From contig NZ_FOCO01000023.1 of the NCBI RefSeq assembly GCF_900110135.1, positions 1-48,522 on the forward strand: 48,522 nucleotides of DNA, read 5' to 3'. The position numbers were made by a program, and so were the translations under genes. Source of the DNA: Pseudorhodobacter antarcticus (GTDB lineage Bacteria; Pseudomonadota; Alphaproteobacteria; Rhodobacterales; Rhodobacteraceae). Shown in pieces: positions 29,876 through 37,523 of the stretch (the stretch's first letter is position 1; each line of letters begins with the position of its first letter). The notes below the pieces were generated by a model that saw only the letters and a list, made by a program, of their open reading frames with translations, ran no database searches and was not told the origin of the DNA.

Positions 29876-30819
29876 TAAACCCTTCCCTTTCACTGCGCGC
29901 CCCCCTTTCGATTTTGCCCGAAGTGGCCGATGCTTTGGCCACTGGCCGCGCTGTTGTGGCGCTGGAAAGCACCATCATCACCCACGGCATGCCCTATCCG
30001 CAAAACATGGATATGGCGCAGCAGGTGGAACAAGACATCCGTGATGCAGGCGCCGTGCCAGCCACGATCGCGGTGATGGGCGGGCAGATCCACATCGGGC
30101 TTTCGCAGGCAGCGCTTGCAGCATTGGCGCAAACCCCACATGCACGCAAACTGTCGCGCGCCGATATGGCGGCCTGTTTGGTCAGCGGTGATACTGGGGC
30201 CACAACAGTGGCGGCCACGATGATCGCAGCCCAGCTTGCGGGAATTGATGTGTTTGCGACAGGCGGCATCGGCGGTGTGCATCGCGGGGCGGAAACCAGT
30301 TTTGACATCTCGGCCGATCTGACCGAACTCGCACGCACCGCCGTAACCGTAGTTTGTGCCGGGGCCAAGGCGATCCTCGATATTCCCAAAACGCTTGAAG
30401 TGTTAGAGACGTATGGCGTGACCGTCATCGCCTATGGCCAATCCGAATTTCCGGGATTTTGGGCGCGCAATTCTGGCCTGCCGGCACCATTACGCTTTGA
30501 TACGGCGGCAGATATCGCGCAGGCGCATTTGATGCGCGCCCGCCTTGGATTGGCGGGTGGCCAGTTGGTGGCAAACCCCATCCCATTGCAGGATGAAATC
30601 CCCCTGCCCCAGATCACCCCGATGATCGAACAAGCCTTGGCCGAGGCTGCGGCGCAAAATATGGCCGCCAAATCCGTGACACCCTTTTTGCTGGATCGGA
30701 TATTCGCGCTGACTGCGGGGCGTTCGTTGACCGCAAACATCGCCCTTGTGCGCAACAACGCGCGCCTTGGGGCCGAAATTGCCCAAGAAATTGCTACCGC
30801 GCGGGCATTGACCCGGTAA
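29872..30819 (+). CDS. psuG: Pseudouridine-5'-phosphate glycosidase
   Basis: A 315-residue enzyme splitting pseudouridine 5'-phosphate into uracil and ribose 5-phosphate. Family phrases are VVALESTIITHGMPYPQN, AVMGGQIHIGL, TVAATMIAAQLAGIDVFATG and GGVHRGAETSFDISADLTEL, and TVVCAGAKAILDIPKTLEVL, which carries the catalytic Lys region. The ATG overlaps the psuK stop (ATGA). Together they catabolise pseudouridine released by RNA turnover. Confidence 0.95.
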   Translation: MINPSLSLRAPLSILPEVADALATGRAVVALESTIITHGMPYPQNMDMAQQVEQDIRDAGAVPATIAVMGGQIHIGLSQAALAALAQTPHARKLSRADMAACLVSGDTGATTVAATMIAAQLAGIDVFATGGIGGVHRGAETSFDISADLTELARTAVTVVCAGAKAILDIPKTLEVLETYGVTVIAYGQSEFPGFWARNSGLPAPLRFDTAADIAQAHLMRARLGLAGGQLVANPIPLQDEIPLPQITPMIEQALAEAAAQNMAAKSVTPFLLDRIFALTAGRSLTANIALVRNNARLGAEIAQEIATARALTR

Positions 30820-30885
30820 CAAGGCCATTTGCCATTGCAGTTGTTCCGCGCGGCCCATAAATTAGCCGCGTAAAAAGGGTGCTAT

Positions 30886-31683
30886 ATGACCAACCAACCA
30901 ATCATTCCGCCCAAAAAGCGTGGCCTGATCGTGGGCCTGCGCGCCAGCTTTTTGACCGGGCTTGTGGTGGTATTGCCTATTGGGTTGACGCTGTACCTGA
31001 TTTGGACAGTCACGGGTTGGATTGACGGGTTTGTGCTGCCCTTCATCCCCGAACGGTTCCAGCCGTCGGAATGGTTTGGCTATTGGTTCTGCCCACCCCA
31101 TTCCGGCCCTGCCACGGGCCTGTCGCAGTTTTGGATGTCAGACCCCGCATCGCCACCGTTTTTCTGCAAGGAAAACGGCATCAACCTGCGTGGCACTGGC
31201 GTTATCATCTTTTTGCTGTTCACCATCTTCATGGGGTGGATCGCGCGCGGTTTGATCGGACGGTCGTTTTTGAACTGGGCCGAACGGCTGGTTGACCGCA
31301 CGCCCGTGGTGCGCAGCATTTACAGCGGCATCAAGCAAATCGCCGAAACTGTGTTCGCCCAAACCGATCAAAATTTCGAAAAGGCTTGCTTGGTCGAATA
31401 CCCGAAGGAGGGGATTTGGGCCATCGGCTTCATCTCCACCGCAGCCAAGGGTGAGATTAAAGCGCGGTTCCCAGAACATGATGAAATGCTGTCGGTGTTT
31501 TTGCCGACCACGCCCAATCCGACCTCGGGGTTTTTGCTGTTCGTGCCGTCAACCGATGTGCGGATGCTGGATATGAAGATTGAAGATGCCGCCAAGTTGA
31601 TCATTTCCGCCGGGCTGGTCTATCCAAATGGCAAGGACAAAGACGGCGTGGCGATTACGCAGCCCCCTGCATCAGTCAAGTAA
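30886..31683 (+). CDS. DUF502-family membrane protein
   Basis: A 265-residue protein with two membrane segments (about 20-45 and 103-122) and the DUF502 core RGLIGRSFLNWAERLVDRTP, VVRSIYSGIKQIAETVF and a C-terminal FLPTTPNPTSGFLLFVP. The function of DUF502 proteins is not established; they are inner-membrane proteins widespread in proteobacteria. The 3' end overlaps the convergent patatin gene by 12 bp. Start ATG is preceded by GGGTGC only, a weak ribosome site. Confidence 0.85.
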   Translation: MTNQPIIPPKKRGLIVGLRASFLTGLVVVLPIGLTLYLIWTVTGWIDGFVLPFIPERFQPSEWFGYWFCPPHSGPATGLSQFWMSDPASPPFFCKENGINLRGTGVIIFLLFTIFMGWIARGLIGRSFLNWAERLVDRTPVVRSIYSGIKQIAETVFAQTDQNFEKACLVEYPKEGIWAIGFISTAAKGEIKARFPEHDEMLSVFLPTTPNPTSGFLLFVPSTDVRMLDMKIEDAAKLIISAGLVYPNGKDKDGVAITQPPASVK

Positions 31684-32721
31684 CGCCATCGGGTCCACCG
31701 TGCCGTGTTTGCCCAAAGCCGCGCCATGCGTGACCAAAAACAAATCCGTTGCCGCGCGCCCCGCGGCCTTTAGCTGCGCCAACAGCGCGGGCGTCGGCAA
31801 CAGTTTGCTGCTGGCCGACAAGCCGTTCATCAACGGATCATCCGCGATCAAATGCAGCGCCACATCCTTCATGCTGCCCTTTTCCAACTGCCCGGATGCC
31901 AGCAACCGTTTGACAAAAGCAATCGCGCGCAAATCCCGCAACAAAGGTGCGTTAAAGCTGATCTCATTAATCCGGTTTTGAATTTCCAACGGGCTTTGCG
32001 GAATGGCCCCGCGCAGCAATGGGTTGATTGCAACAATGATAAGATCGTCTGGCAAACCCTTTTCATACAACGGAAACAGCGCTGGGTTGCCAGAATATCC
32101 ACCATCCCACCATGCCTCCATTTGCCCCGTCACAGGGTCGGGCGCCTCCACCGCTTGAAACGCGGTGGGCAAGCAGGCCGAGGCCATAAGCGCCTCTGGC
32201 GTGATGTTTTGCCCGGTAAACACCCCGATTTTACCCGACCGCACATTGGTTGCATTTACAAACAAACGCGGCCCCGCATCGGCGCAGACTTGGGAAAAAT
32301 CAAAACTCGCCACCACCGGGGCCAATGGGTTTTTCCACGCGGCCCCCATCGCATAGGGCGAAAACATCTGCGATGCGATCCCTTGCGGCGATGTTTTGAA
32401 CGTGTTTTCCCACGCATCCGTCATCGCGGCGGCAAAGGGCAAAACGGGCTGCATCCACGCGGACAGGCGCATGTCGCCCACCTGCCCCACCGTGGCCCAC
32501 AGCGCGTCCAATGCGGCCCGCGCCCCGTCACGCCCGCCCGTCACCATCCCCGATTTGAACGCCGCCCCGTTCAGCGCCCCTGCGGATGTGCCCGAAATCG
32601 CAGCAACCTCTACCCCGGTTTCATCCAACAAACGGTCCAGCACGCCCCAAGTGAACGCGCCATGCGCGCCGCCCCCTTGCAGGGCAAGATTGACACGAAC
32701 CACGCTCACAAGGCGGTCCAA
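31672..32721 (-). CDS. Patatin-like phospholipase
   Basis: A 349-residue serine lipid hydrolase. The oxyanion hole LALQGGGAHGAFTWGVLD, the nucleophile motif ISGTSAGALNG (GxSxG) and the catalytic Asp in WWDGGYSGNPAL are all present, so the Ser-Asp dyad is intact. The start is either ATG at 32721 or GTG at 32709; the latter gives a four-base GTGA overlap with the bdhA stop. It is therefore co-translated with bdhA, which suggests a role in storage-polymer or lipid turnover, but this is inference. Confidence 0.85.
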   Translation of the reverse strand: MDRLVSVVRVNLALQGGGAHGAFTWGVLDRLLDETGVEVAAISGTSAGALNGAAFKSGMVTGGRDGARAALDALWATVGQVGDMRLSAWMQPVLPFAAAMTDAWENTFKTSPQGIASQMFSPYAMGAAWKNPLAPVVASFDFSQVCADAGPRLFVNATNVRSGKIGVFTGQNITPEALMASACLPTAFQAVEAPDPVTGQMEAWWDGGYSGNPALFPLYEKGLPDDLIIVAINPLLRGAIPQSPLEIQNRINEISFNAPLLRDLRAIAFVKRLLASGQLEKGSMKDVALHLIADDPLMNGLSASSKLLPTPALLAQLKAAGRAATDLFLVTHGAALGKHGTVDPMALLD

Positions 32722-33479
32722 CCACCATCAACGGAAATCGTGGTGCCGGTGATCTGGTCTGCGGACGGCGAACACAGGAACACGACCGTGCCGCCAAGCT
32801 GTGTGGTCGTCGCAAACTGGCGGCTGGGCTGGCGGTCCAGCATCACCTCGCGGATGACCGTTTCGCGGTCCATACTGTGCTTTTTCATCTGATCGGGGAT
32901 CTGCGCCTCTACCAACGGCGTCAAAACATAGCCGGGACAGACCGCGTTGCAGGTGATACCCGCCCCCGCCGTTTCCAAAGCAGTCACCTTGGACAGCCCA
33001 ACCACGCCATGCTTTGCCGCCACATAGGCTGATTTATAGGGGCTGGCCGTCAACCCATGCGCGGAGGCGATATTGACCACGCGCCCCCAGCCTTTCGCCC
33101 GCATCATCGGCAAGGCGGCAGCCGTGGTGTGAAACGCCGACGACAAATTGATCGCAATAATCGCGTTCCACTTGTCGACCGCAAACTCTTCAATCGCGGC
33201 AACATGCTGAATACCCGCGTTGTTCACTAAGATGTCACAGGCCCCGGCCTGCGCGATCAACTTGCGGCACGCATCCCCAGCCGACATATCCGCCTGAACA
33301 TAGCGCACGGTGACGCCATGCTGCGCCGCAATGTCTGCGGCCAGCGCGTGATCTTCATCCCGGTTGGTGAACGAGTTGATGACAACATCCGCCCCCGCCC
33401 GCGCCAATTCATGCGCAATCCCAAGGCCGATGCCAGAGTTGGACCCAGTGATAACGGCGGTTTTTCCTGCAAGTGTCAT
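32706..33479 (-). CDS. bdhA: 3-Hydroxybutyrate dehydrogenase, SDR family
   Basis: A 257-residue short-chain dehydrogenase. NAD site TGSNSGIGLGIAHELARAG, NNAGIQHVAAIEEF, and catalytic Ser, Tyr and Lys in VVNIASAHGLTASPYKSAYV and the following AAKHG. The LTASPYKSAYVAAKHG phrase and the QFATTTQLGG end are typical of 3-hydroxybutyrate dehydrogenases, which oxidise 3-hydroxybutyrate from polyhydroxybutyrate to acetoacetate. A strong AAGGGGC precedes ATG. An intrinsic terminator 100 bp upstream (33581-33610) could act on its leader. Confidence 0.92.
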   Translation of the reverse strand: MTLAGKTAVITGSNSGIGLGIAHELARAGADVVINSFTNRDEDHALAADIAAQHGVTVRYVQADMSAGDACRKLIAQAGACDILVNNAGIQHVAAIEEFAVDKWNAIIAINLSSAFHTTAAALPMMRAKGWGRVVNIASAHGLTASPYKSAYVAAKHGVVGLSKVTALETAGAGITCNAVCPGYVLTPLVEAQIPDQMKKHSMDRETVIREVMLDRQPSRQFATTTQLGGTVVFLCSPSADQITGTTISVDGGWTAL

Positions 33480-33580
33480 GGCATGCCCCTTGATTGCTGC
33501 GCTTGCAGCATCCTGTCACGCGACCGGACGAAAGGGAACGCCCCACCCCACACAATTGCGTTTGCCCCGCCCACCGGGCC

Positions 33581-33610
33581 AAAAAAAAACGCCAGCACGA
33601 AGCTGGCGTT
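33581..33610 (-). terminator. Strong intrinsic terminator on the minus strand
   Basis: On the minus strand AACGCCAGC-TTCGT-GCTGGCGTT is a perfect nine-base-pair stem with a five-base loop, running into nine T residues. In the plus direction no T-run follows, so it acts on minus-strand transcription. No minus-strand protein gene lies upstream of it in the gap, which means it ends a non-coding RNA or sits in the leader of bdhA. Confidence 0.85.
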
Positions 33611-33658
33611 AAGTTATTGAGGCAGGTTTCATACAGGCAAGAAACCTATCGAGCAGTC
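33581..33658 (-). ncRNA. Predicted small RNA (about 78 nt) or attenuated bdhA leader
   Basis: The minus-strand interval from a predicted start near 33658 to the terminator U-run at 33581 has no reading frame. It contains a first hairpin AGGTTTC-N10-GAAACCT (33647-33624) with a ten-base loop, a single-stranded AT-rich linker and the terminator hairpin. A near-consensus promoter precedes it (33664-33692). Size, promoter and terminator all fit a trans-acting small RNA. The alternative is a regulatory leader: bdhA starts 101 bp beyond the terminator on the same strand. I do not recognise the sequence as a known family. Confidence 0.6.
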
Positions 33659-33663
33659 CTTAC

Positions 33664-33692
33664 TTTATACGCGTTAACTTGCCAGGGGCCAA
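33664..33692 (-). promoter_or_regulatory. Housekeeping- or RpoH-like promoter for the predicted RNA
   Basis: On the minus strand TTGGCC (33692-33687) and TATAAA (33669-33664) are separated by exactly 17 bases. The preceding C (CTTGGCC) is also compatible with the CTTG -35 of RpoH-type heat-shock sigma factors. Start of transcription is expected near 33657-33658. Confidence 0.6.
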
Positions 33693-33770
33693 GTAAAAAG
33701 TTTGAACATCCGCGAAACCAGCCCTAGTGTCTGCGCCATGAAACCTTGGTGAAATGGGATTGTTGACGGA

Positions 33771-35588
33771 ATGAAATATCAATTTTTCGCGAAGTTGCGC
33801 AATGCAACAGCCCTGTTTTTCCTCTGTCTCGTGGCGATTCCCGCGCAGGCGCAGCCACAACACGCCATTGCTATGTATGGTGACCCAGCGTTACCACCTG
33901 ATTTTGTGTCCCTGCCATACGCGAACGCCAACGCGCCCCAAGGCGGCCGCATCATTTTTGGCGAATCGGGCAGCTTCGATTCGCTTAACCCCTTCATTTT
34001 GAAAGGCCGTGCGCCTTGGGGGCAAACGGCCCTGACCACCGAAACTCTGTTGGGGCGGTCGTTTGATGAACCTTTCACACTGTACGGCTTGCTGGCCGAA
34101 ACCGTGGAAACCGACGCCGCGCGCAGTTTCGTGGAATTTACGCTGCGCGACACCGCACGGTTCAGCGATGGCAGCCCGGTGACGGTCGACGATGTGCTGT
34201 GGTCGTTTGAAACATTGGGCACCATCGGCCACCCGCGCTATCTGAACAGTTGGACAAAGGTGGCAAAGGCCGAAATCACTGGCCCCCAGTCTGTCAAAAT
34301 CACTTTCAACACCACCGACCGCGAATTGCCCCTTATCATGGGTCTGCGCCCGATCTTGCAAAAGGCGCAATGGCAGGGCAAGGATTTCACCGCCTCCACG
34401 TTAGAGGCGCCAATCGGTTCTGGCCCCTATATTATTGGAAAATCGGAAACCGGGCGCTTTATTTCCTTTGTGAAGAACCCCGATTGGTGGGGGCGTGATT
34501 TGCCCTTTAACAAGGGCCGCCATAACTTGGGCGAGGTGCGCTATGATTATTTCGGTGACAGTGGCGTGATGTTTGAGGCGTTTAAAGCGGGCGAATTGAC
34601 CAGCTACCGCGAAACCAACGCCGCCAAATGGGATCAGCAATACAGCTTTCCCGCCATGACCGCGGGCGATGTTGTCAAATCCGAAATCCCCCATTCCCGC
34701 CCCTCAGGGATGGACGGGTTTGTGATGAACACCCGCCGCGCGCAGTTCATCGATTGGCGGGTGCGCGAGGCGTTGATTTCGGCCTTCAACTTTGAACAGA
34801 TCAACACCACGATCACAGGCGGCGCCGCCCCGCGCATCCAGTCCTATTTCCACAATTCGGTTTTGGCGATGGCCTCCGGCACCCCTGCCACGGGCGCGGA
34901 ACTGGCGCTGTTGCAACCCTTTGCGGACGGTCTGTTGCCGGGCGTGATCGACGGATATGCCCTGCCCATCGCCGACAATGCCACCAACCGCAAAAACATT
35001 CGCGCCGCCAAAGGCTTGCTGGAACAGGCAGGCTGGGCCCCCGATGCGGCGGGCGTGTTGCGCGATGCGGCAGGCACGCCATTTGCCTTTGACATCTTGC
35101 TGACCAATGGCAATGCCGAAGTAACCACCATCGCCAATATGTATATTGAGGCGCTCAAACCGCTTGGCATCACGGCCACCCTGACCAGCATCGACAGCGC
35201 GCAGATGACCGAACGCACCAACGCTTATGACTTTGACATGACACATATGATCCGGTCGATGTCCCTGTCGCCGGGCAATGAACAAAACCTCTATTGGGGG
35301 GCGGCGGGTGTCACAGACCCCGGCAGCCGCAACTGGATGGGCATGAATGTCCCCGCCGCACAGGCCATGATAGATGCGATGCTGAACGCCCAAACCGAAG
35401 GTGATTTTGTCGCCGCCACCAAGGCGCTTGACCGCGTGTTAACCGCTGGGCGCTATGTCGTGCCTTTCTGGTACTCGAAATATTCGCGCCTGGCCCATGC
35501 CAAGCAATTGCAATTCCCCACCACATTGCCAATTTACGGCGATTGGCCGGGGTTCCAACCCGATGTTTGGTGGTATCAGCCAGATTAA
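33771..35588 (+). CDS. YejA-like periplasmic peptide-binding protein (SBP family 5)
   Basis: A 605-residue exported protein with signal peptide (about 1-27, ending AIPAQA). The family phrases are AMYGDPALPPDFVSLPYANA, GGRIIFGESGSFDSLNPF, FTLRDTARFSDGSPVTVDDV and a C-terminal VPFWYSKYSRLAHAKQL. These resemble YejA-type binding proteins for oligopeptides and microcin-like ligands. No permease or ATPase gene follows, so it is an orphan here and must use a transporter elsewhere. No strong Shine-Dalgarno is visible; a weak TTGAAC box lies at 33702. Confidence 0.88.
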   Translation: MKYQFFAKLRNATALFFLCLVAIPAQAQPQHAIAMYGDPALPPDFVSLPYANANAPQGGRIIFGESGSFDSLNPFILKGRAPWGQTALTTETLLGRSFDEPFTLYGLLAETVETDAARSFVEFTLRDTARFSDGSPVTVDDVLWSFETLGTIGHPRYLNSWTKVAKAEITGPQSVKITFNTTDRELPLIMGLRPILQKAQWQGKDFTASTLEAPIGSGPYIIGKSETGRFISFVKNPDWWGRDLPFNKGRHNLGEVRYDYFGDSGVMFEAFKAGELTSYRETNAAKWDQQYSFPAMTAGDVVKSEIPHSRPSGMDGFVMNTRRAQFIDWRVREALISAFNFEQINTTITGGAAPRIQSYFHNSVLAMASGTPATGAELALLQPFADGLLPGVIDGYALPIADNATNRKNIRAAKGLLEQAGWAPDAAGVLRDAAGTPFAFDILLTNGNAEVTTIANMYIEALKPLGITATLTSIDSAQMTERTNAYDFDMTHMIRSMSLSPGNEQNLYWGAAGVTDPGSRNWMGMNVPAAQAMIDAMLNAQTEGDFVAATKALDRVLTAGRYVVPFWYSKYSRLAHAKQLQFPTTLPIYGDWPGFQPDVWWYQPD

Positions 35589-35647
35589 GACCACCCCTAA
35601 CCTTACGCCCCAAAACCCGGCCCCCCTTGGCCCGCAAAAATGAGAAG

Positions 35648-35785
35648 ATGATGAAACACAAAACCCTTTTCCTGCGTCCACTTGCCCTCCTCGCCCTCCT
35701 TGCGGCACTCTCCGCTTGCGGGACGGTTGATGGCATCGGGCGCGACCTGTCAGGCGCCTCCAACCGCGTCTCAAATATGCTTTAA
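35648..35785 (+). CDS. Entericidin-like small lipoprotein
   Basis: A 45-residue protein starting MMKHKTLFLRPLALLALLAA with lipobox LSAC; the mature part is only CGTVDGIGRDLSGASNRVSN-ML. The short mature peptide with GxGxD and SxxSN pattern resembles the entericidin EcnA/EcnB family of envelope lipoproteins. It lies 59 bp after the YejA-like gene and about 100 bp before eptA. Too small for automated callers to find reliably; the lipobox and family pattern support it. Confidence 0.7.
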   Translation: MMKHKTLFLRPLALLALLAALSACGTVDGIGRDLSGASNRVSNML

Positions 35786-35888
35786 CCGCACGCGCAGGCC
35801 TGCTATAGCGGCGTTGTTTTGCAGCGCCTCCGGCCCCATCGGCCTGCGGCGTGACTGCAATTAAGACCCGATCAAGGGATGCCCCATC

Positions 35889-37523
35889 TTGCCAAGCCTG
35901 CATAACCTGTGCCGCTTTTCGCCCGGCCTGTCGCCGTTGATGCTGAACATTCTTGTCGCGGCCTTCATAATGGCCCTGCACAACAACACATTCTGGACGC
36001 GCAGCTTTGCCGCCTATGGCGCAAGTTACAGCACCACGGCGCTGTTTGGGGCGGCGGTGTTCGCGCTGACCTTGCTTGTGATCACCCTGTTCGCCGTGCG
36101 CTGGTTCCAAAAGCCGGTTTTGGCATTTTTGCTTATCCTCGGCGCTGTCACCTCTTATTACCAAGATACTCTGGGGGCCACGATTGACCGTGAAATGATC
36201 CAAAACGCGATCACCACCACGGTCACGGAATCCAAACATCTGATCACCCCGAATTTCATGTTCCATGTAATCTGGGCGGGTATTTTGCCCGCATTGGTCG
36301 TGGCGTTTGTCACGGTCAAACGGTCTCAGCCATTGCGCGCGGGGCTGATTTGGGGTGCCAGTGTTCTGGGCTCTGCCGCGCTGTGTGTCGGTCTCCTCCT
36401 CCTCAACTTCTCGACGTTTTCGGTGACCTTGCGCGCTGATAAATCCCTGATGGCGGCTTATCAGCCGGGTGCGCCTTTGTCGGCCACGCTGCGCTATGCG
36501 CGGATGCTGCAAAAATCGGCGCGCTTGCCGTTGCAGCCTTACGGCACCGATGCCAAAACCGATGGTGAGGTGGCGCGCGCCACCAAACCCATCCTGATCG
36601 TGCTGGTTGCAGGCGAAACCGCACGGGCGCAAAACTGGTCCTTGGGTGGCTACGGGCGTGACACCAACCCAGAACTGGCCAAACGCGACATTACCTATTT
36701 CTCCAACACCAGCAGCTGTGGCACCGCCACGGCCGTGTCGCTGCCCTGCATGTTTTCCCATCTTGGCCGCACCGATTACAGCTATGAAGGCGGTTTGGGG
36801 TCAGAAAACCTGCTCGATCTGCTTGGCCGTGCTGGCTATAAGGTTGAATGGTGGGACAACAACACCGGCGACAAGAATATCGCCGACCGCTTTCCCGTCA
36901 AATCCTTCATCACCTCCACCGACCCGCGTTATTGCGCCGATGGGGAATGTACCGATGGCATATTTTTGGACGCATTGACCGATTATGCCGCCACCATGAC
37001 GCAAAACACTGTGCTGGTTTTGCACATGATCGGCAGCCACGGCCCGTCCTATTATCTGCGCTATCCAGCCGAATTCGAACGCTTCACCCCCGCCTGCAAA
37101 ACCGCAGAGCTGAAGAATTGTGAAGCCGCCGACATCGTCAACGCCTATGACAACACAATCCTTTATACCGATCATATCCTTGCCAGCATGATCGACATTT
37201 TGGACAACCAAGACCGCGTGATGACGACCTTGTTCTACGCCTCTGACCACGGCGAATCCTTGGGCGAAAATGGGCTGTACTTGCACGGCGCGCCCTATTT
37301 TATGGCGCCCGAATACCAGACCCGCGTGCCGATGCTGTTGTGGTTTGGCAAGGACTATGGGCACACCTTTGAAATTGACACCGACTGTGTCGGGCAAAAA
37401 GCAAACGATATCACCAGCCATGACAACATCTTCAGCACCGTTTTGCGGCTGGCCGATGTGCATACAAAGGTAATTGATCCCGCGCTGGATCTAATTTCAA
37501 GCTGCCACCCTGATGAAAGCTGA
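35889..37523 (+). CDS. eptA: Phosphoethanolamine transferase, EptA family
   Basis: A 544-residue inner-membrane enzyme with five N-terminal membrane segments (to about residue 175) and a periplasmic sulfatase-fold domain. Metal and catalytic residues are in VLVAGETARAQNWSLGGYG (Glu), SSCGTATAVSLPCMFS (Thr nucleophile) and ASDHGESLGENGLYLHG (Asp-His). It moves phosphoethanolamine from phosphatidylethanolamine to lipid A, releasing diacylglycerol. Pairs of Cys in CADGECTDG and PACKTAELKNC fit the family disulfides. The start is TTG at 35889 or ATG at 35940. The gene overlaps dgkA by 11 bp. Confidence 0.88.
   Translation: MPSLHNLCRFSPGLSPLMLNILVAAFIMALHNNTFWTRSFAAYGASYSTTALFGAAVFALTLLVITLFAVRWFQKPVLAFLLILGAVTSYYQDTLGATIDREMIQNAITTTVTESKHLITPNFMFHVIWAGILPALVVAFVTVKRSQPLRAGLIWGASVLGSAALCVGLLLLNFSTFSVTLRADKSLMAAYQPGAPLSATLRYARMLQKSARLPLQPYGTDAKTDGEVARATKPILIVLVAGETARAQNWSLGGYGRDTNPELAKRDITYFSNTSSCGTATAVSLPCMFSHLGRTDYSYEGGLGSENLLDLLGRAGYKVEWWDNNTGDKNIADRFPVKSFITSTDPRYCADGECTDGIFLDALTDYAATMTQNTVLVLHMIGSHGPSYYLRYPAEFERFTPACKTAELKNCEAADIVNAYDNTILYTDHILASMIDILDNQDRVMTTLFYASDHGESLGENGLYLHGAPYFMAPEYQTRVPMLLWFGKDYGHTFEIDTDCVGQKANDITSHDNIFSTVLRLADVHTKVIDPALDLISSCHPDES

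Follow-up and report, generated by a model that had tools for sequence, protein, structure and literature searches.

DicF of E. coli is a prophage-borne sRNA that pairs with the translation start of ftsZ and blocks division. In Rhodobacter sphaeroides, StsR (RSs0827) is presented in the accessible part of its report as a 72-nt Hfq-binding sRNA affecting cell-division genes (PMC8307010), and UpsM, in the accessible part of another, as a 206-nt RNA in the mraZ leader, with no mraZ-exclusive start site seen (PMC5089854). EcpR1 of Sinorhizobium meliloti is, in the portion of the article available, a conserved alphaproteobacterial trans sRNA acting on the cell cycle (PMC4414408). Available sections of two further studies give Intergenic 134 of Paracoccus denitrificans as a well-expressed RNA of 84 nt, with a sequence and context common with a putative R. 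sphaeroides sRNA (PMC5107571), and a set of 30 trans small RNAs in Ruegeria pomeroyi (PMC4809877).

The locus described here lies in a stretch of 48,522 nt from Pseudorhodobacter antarcticus, hereafter the window. An initial annotation had placed, on the minus strand of a 291-nt gap, an unannotated small RNA or a bdhA attenuator leader with its own promoter and terminator. The gap, 33480-33770, is indeed free of protein genes and of that length. The features of the locus are as follows, with nucleotides (nt) of the RNA numbered from the predicted 5' end.

32706-33479, minus strand: bdhA, coding for 3-hydroxybutyrate dehydrogenase, the usual downstream neighbour (TIGR01963, 365.7 bits, cut-off 307.05).
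33495-33510, no strand assigned: dyad TGCTGC-N4-GCAGCA before bdhA, a candidate operator outside the RNA (motif counts).
33581-33657, minus strand: putative small RNA gene of 77 nt, predicted 5' end 33657 and 3' end 33581 (sequence and family-wide conservation; transcription presumed).
33687-33692, minus strand: -35-like element TTGGCC, with a C before it at 33693 (TTGG at least 90% each and the C 80-89% in 172 distinct aligned loci).
33664-33669, minus strand: -10-like element TATAAA (conserved in the 172 distinct aligned loci at 90% or more for each base of TATA and at 70-79% for the two that follow).
33648-33657, minus strand: nt 1-10, the conserved 5' end ACUGCUCGAU, unpaired for the most part in the fold and invariant in an alignment in which most loci were picked by an exact 36-mer.
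33624-33647, minus strand: hairpin I, AGGUUUC-UUGCCUGUAU-GAAACCU, 7-bp stem of nt 11-17 and 28-34 with a 10-nt loop (fold from +1, centroid).
33633-33640, minus strand: loop seed UUGCCUGU, nt 18-25 (predicted pairing with the ftsZ ribosome-binding site).
33611-33623, minus strand: linker, nt 35-47, a possible Hfq site (sequence; Hfq binding presumed).
33588-33610, minus strand: intrinsic terminator AACGCCAGC-UUCGU-GCUGGCGUU, 9 bp with a 5-nt loop (pattern scan and compensatory changes).
33581-33589, minus strand: T run of the terminator, two of its nine Ts lying in the stem (sequence and alignment).
33702-33730, plus strand: possible promoter of the divergent gene, TTGAAC-N17-TAGTGT (putative, from the sequence).
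33771-35588, plus strand: divergent gene for an ABC-transporter substrate-binding protein, the most constant neighbour (weak NikA/Opp-type matches, below cut-offs).

Direct reading of the minus strand bore out the promoter pair proposed by the initial annotation, TTGGCC at 33692-33687 and TATAAA at 33669-33664 with a 17-nt spacer, as well as the 7-bp hairpin with its 10-nt loop at 33647-33624. The terminator had been described as a 9-bp stem with nine Us; the stem is as described, and two of the nine Ts (33589-33581) are stem bases, which leaves seven Us beyond it. Six bases separate TATAAA from the predicted +1, an A at 33657 on the minus strand. A pattern scan of 30000-37000 returned seven terminator-like sites against 9.5 in shuffled sequence, i.e. 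no excess; among the seven, the site of the RNA ranked first both in number of G-C pairs and in length of the T run. The corresponding promoter scan returned three sites against 3.2 in shuffles, and missed the promoter of the RNA because the last base of its -10 element is an A. RpoH-type control, which had been suggested from the C before TTG, is not supported, a TATA -10 element and a C before TTG fitting ordinary alphaproteobacterial promoters.

Consensus scans alone thus remain at chance level, and it is the conservation that excludes chance. With a 146-nt query, 384 of 394 Rhodobacteraceae genomes matched at E<=1.1e-12, while among the other ten, nine matched only at E 0.03-0.83 and one gave no match at all. 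The RNA was present in 120 of 121 Paracoccus genomes. Since 117 of the 184 loci collected were chosen by an exact 36-mer (the locus of the window itself being counted twice in the 184), the invariance seen in the alignment is partly due to selection. The search for nt 1-40 with at most three mismatches is a fairer count, although 150 places were listed: it found 378 of the 394 family genomes and 340 of the 347 of good quality, and the block was letter-perfect in 147 among the 150 places listed, the others being G142 and G379 with one mismatch each and G157 with three.

In the alignment of 172 distinct loci, invariance starts exactly at the predicted +1, 33657, and conservation stops past the T run. 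The promoter boxes and the predicted +1 coincide with the conserved block, the spacer and discriminator are unconserved, and single-base gaps and changes are tolerated in the RNA from nt 41 on. The block CAAAC (minus strand), at the possible promoter of the divergent gene, is at least 80% conserved in the same alignment.

The RNA seems to be confined to the family. All 121 genomes of an order-level sample matched, every one of them belonging to the same family, and a class-level sample of 240 gave 12 matches at E<=0.01, of which three came from the family itself. The nine from outside it (E 0.003-0.009) exceeded the 2 or 3 expected at this cut-off and were judged by eye not to be homologues; several covered the terminator only, and the best shared 26 of 40 positions of the 40-nt block, ungapped. 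Inspection of the matches in these 240 genomes found no copy outside the family. The exact 36-mer occurs in 118 named stretches; among the 80 listed, nearly all were assigned to Rhodobacterales or its genera, two were labelled Neomegalonema and a few merely Alphaproteobacteria.

The structure of the RNA was then considered. An 81-nt stretch folded at -25.5 kcal/mol (z = -3.54), with none of 200 shuffles as good. When folded from 33657, the best structure contained hairpin I and the terminator, with the loop 76-98% unpaired; with five extra 5' bases the best structure had another 5' hairpin, and hairpin I appeared only in the centroid. Both folds kept the terminator and showed no competing antiterminator. 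The conserved stems with compensating changes that had been looked for were found at the terminator, where pairs change together across the 172 loci: nt 54-64 are C-G in 103, G-C in 34, A-U in 27 and U-A in 6, nt 51-67 are G-C in 160 and C-G in 11, and the pairs 52-66 and 53-65 are mainly C-G with some U-A. Hairpin I never varies, and it has no covariation support because it is invariant throughout the alignment.

Its own promoter and terminator, family-wide conservation and compensatory changes in the terminator strongly support the small-RNA claim of the initial annotation. The element also lies outside coding sequence, as expected for a trans-encoded, intrinsically terminated sRNA, and from these sequence data we consider it very probably a real, independent small-RNA gene. 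A small protein gene was weighed here, as an ATG at nt 26-28 opens a frame reading MKPASIT, found in 78 of 190 distinct sequences, with MKPAS in 42. However, no ribosome-binding site was seen by eye before this ATG, there is no fixed stop, a gap falls at nt 41 in 49 of the 172 loci, and nt 1-40 are without any change in 147 among the 150 places listed; a coding function is scarcely credible.

A comparison of the neighbourhood of the RNA across the 184 loci found the divergent transporter gene on the upstream side in 172 (145+19+8), most commonly at 114-116 nt, and bdhA no more than 1.5 kb downstream in 150 (145+3+2). Seven loci have neither usual neighbour in reach (L039, L057, L062, L069, L116, L046 and L153), and the RNA is present there. 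bdhA was called by tblastn at E<=1e-5, leaving out 12 of the 184 loci with too short a downstream sequence. Of the 172 loci so assessed, 135 had bdhA within 400 nt, 16 had it displaced, and in 21 it was not seen, at least 1.5 kb of downstream sequence having been examined in each. By a mechanical ORF rule, the longest downstream ORF is opposite to the RNA in 14 of the 21 loci where bdhA was unseen and in 7 of the 16 where it was displaced.

These counts bear on the attenuator proposed in the initial annotation, in which regulated read-through of the terminator would set bdhA expression. The position and orientation of the RNA would allow such a leader in the window itself and in the 135 loci. 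A leader position is, however, not the general rule: the RNA is kept where bdhA is displaced or not seen, bdhA often has an upstream motif of its own, and the folds made keep the terminator, with no competing antiterminator appearing. We consider bdhA attenuation unlikely as the role of the RNA, and a leader working by regulated read-through very improbable. In a softer form, a mostly terminated sRNA would at times be read through into bdhA, for which two points can be adduced: in 135 of 172 loci bdhA follows in the orientation of the RNA at no more than 400 nt, and UpsM is a precedent in the same family (accessible part of PMC5089854). The same displaced or unseen bdhA genes and the frequency of the upstream motif argue against this dual element as well, and we hold it improbable; by analogy with UpsM, a leader role may nevertheless occur in some species.

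The upstream motif, TGC(A/T)GCA or a longer dyad, occurs between the terminator and bdhA in 64 of the 135 loci against 5.5 in shuffles, and in 43 of those 64 it stands 40-59 nt upstream of the bdhA start. It resembles what we take to be the PhaR operator, and its recurrence suggests a control site of bdhA's own. Because the RNA is kept without an adjacent bdhA and this motif lies upstream of the gene, bdhA would probably have its own start and control.

Pairing of the RNA with the two neighbour genes, scored with accessibility, reached -5.46 for the transporter gene (-2.54 to -4.49 in 12 shuffles) and -5.31 for bdhA (-2.74 to -4.72 in 12 shuffles), stronger in both cases than every shuffle, the bdhA score showing no difference from shuffles when accessibility was left out. 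No target was taken among these two genes, either of which may still be one, because the pairing positions scatter. At the start of the transporter gene (33745-33775) no ordinary ribosome-binding site was seen by eye. The sequence GGATTGT before this start is common to 56 of 135 distinct loci.

Possible targets were screened in one single-contig relative, G093, by ungapped pairing and accessibility at 2361 starts, the genes having been called heuristically on 2.4 Mb, about three quarters of the chromosome. Below -8 there were 143 genes, against 9 to 393 for 12 shuffled RNAs; since there is no excess over the shuffles, this list alone proves nothing. The loop was used by 92 of the 143. Three genes of the top 40 were picked by judgement for a conservation test: ftsZ and two that we presume to be an NDUFA9-like gene and cysG. 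The NDUFA9-like gene (4th in G093) was rejected, its site being found in only 4 of 30 relatives. A homologue of cysG (1st in G093) was found in 27 of 41 genomes, the genome of the window not being among them.

ftsZ ranked 17th of the 2361 genes, with a site at -17 to -8. A CAGGC core lies shortly upstream of the ftsZ start in 30 of 30 relatives and in L401; the site reads CAGGCGG in 30 of these 31 family genes and CAGGCAG in the remaining one. Pairing involved nt 18-25 of the RNA in 27 genes, parts of this stretch in 3 and nt 20-27 in 1, so that complementarity to the ftsZ ribosome-binding site was conserved in all 31 genes first read. The mean pairing energy over the 31 was -8.09; among 150 shuffled RNAs (mean -3.27, sd 1.59), one did as well. 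In the same zone, (A/G)CAGGC(A/G)(A/G) occurs in 15 of the 2361 G093 genes, compared with 6 in a control zone further upstream, and for three other genes the most widely shared 7-mer of this zone reached 4/30, 11/157 and 56/135, no word being common to the same extent as in ftsZ. None of six outgroup families had CAGGC in ftsZ, GGAGG-like sites being present instead; these six genomes were not among the class-level matches of the RNA. The C in CAGGCGG breaks the match to the 16S tail, and for this reason CAGGC(G/A)G is odd as a ribosome-binding site.

We further read 19 ftsZ starts, picked because they were divergent or because the RNA of the genome was variant or unseen. Eleven had CAGGC(G/A)(G/A), three paired only with extra G-U pairs (G021, G155, G136), four had no site (G379, G029, G004, G014), and G017 was left out, as its start could not be read. 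In G033 the site ACAGGCAA pairs with the loop through Watson-Crick pairs alone. In the 150 places listed, a mutated loop occurs just once, in G379 (L416), a single genome of 2.3 Mb: one loop letter is changed, its ftsZ lacks the usual site, and the terminator of its RNA still pairs. In G157 and G142 the RNA is changed outside the loop and the ftsZ site is kept. G004 and G014 have an RNA within three mismatches over nt 1-40 (loop letters unread) and no ftsZ site; they count against a universal rule because the RNA is kept without the site. G029 has neither the site nor an RNA within three mismatches over nt 1-40 (loop letters unread). The site or its G-U form is kept in G390, G227, G102 and G136, where the RNA has more than three mismatches (loop letters unread), and in G133, G147, G155 and G033, drafts 90, 73, 92 and 74% complete with no convincing RNA. 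The ftsZ zone of G014 (L410) holds AUCGAGCAG, a perfect complement to RNA nt 2-10, which may be a switch of the seed or chance.

These cases leave room for a real trans-acting sRNA that acts mainly on other mRNAs, in which case the conserved ribosome-binding site of ftsZ would match it by coincidence. Such a reading agrees with the lack of a genome-wide pairing excess in G093, with the exceptions G029, G004 and G014, with the four drafts that retain the site although no RNA was visible in them, and with 40 nearly invariant nucleotides that demand more than one 8-nt contact. Against it stand the non-canonical site, which all 31 family ftsZ genes of the first reading have and none of the 6 outgroups has, the single shuffle in 150 that pairs as well, and the loop mutant G379 without an ftsZ site. 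Conservation of the ftsZ site may stem from one shared origin in one clade, i.e. coincidence, or the site may be kept for translation alone. We regard this alternative as a distinct possibility, to which we give rather less than an even chance. ftsZ is the best-supported target found, and whether it is a real one we judge, from the pairing and its conservation, to be evenly poised.

On balance we lean slightly towards a terminated trans-acting sRNA of about 77 nt with a loop acting on ftsZ translation. A promoter lying back to back with that of the divergent transporter gene would start the RNA at 33657, and transcription would stop at the terminator, 33581. In the RNA, the 5' end would be mostly free, the 10-nt loop of the hairpin would be open, and the linker and U tail may suit Hfq; these last two are the sole features seen that would do so, and the Hfq site is a candidate. 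For the loop UUGCCUGU, pairing is predicted with the ribosome-binding site in ftsZ mRNA, e.g. ACAGGCGG or the G033 form. This pairing would block ribosome entry, so that a high level of the RNA would bring FtsZ down. Since the loop does not by itself account for 40 nucleotides that hardly change, other targets are probably served by the 5' end and the remainder of nt 1-40. More tentatively, and with somewhat less than an even chance, the RNA could be an inherent brake on cell division: in this clade the ribosome-binding site of ftsZ would have departed from the canonical form so as to remain complementary to the loop, and division would be tied to the signal driving the promoter region shared with the transporter.

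Rfam 15 contained no family at or above its gathering cut-off for this RNA, the window yielding two tRNAs only; the best weak matches at the RNA were SpF41 (26.2 of 52 bits), RyhB (20.5 of 55) and SorY (18.4 of 111). Identity with StsR was rejected, as the probe published in the accessible parts of PMC11354728 and PMC3688512 needs at least 11 mismatches here and the window has no match to it at three or fewer. The main texts of PMC5107571, PMC3688512 and PMC4809877, whose coordinate lists sit in supplements, do not use the word hydroxybutyrate, and the RNA-seq lists of relatives may well already contain the RNA, unnamed. No function of it is described in the open-licence literature searched. 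The element is thus a core sRNA of a large marine and phototrophic family that falls below every Rfam cut-off and, if the control of ftsZ is true, would amount to family-wide RNA control of division in Rhodobacteraceae.

Among the described systems, Intergenic 134 has reported matches, in the accessible part of its source, that include Rhizobiales, Streptomyces and Chloroflexus, unlike the present RNA, the two being compared by description. EcpR1 belongs to another bacterial group and is likened by description alone. UpsM, as far as its available text goes, is likewise a Rhodobacteraceae element with a promoter and an intrinsic terminator ahead of a gene; it differs in that bdhA is sometimes displaced or not seen near the present RNA. 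StsR is an sRNA of the same bacterial family with a link to cell division, whereas the targets given in the accessible part of its description are the UpsM/dcw leader and rpoE. DicF differs in being prophage-borne and is likened by description, with no sequence relation claimed; what it would have in common with the present RNA is the ftsZ translation start as the pairing site.
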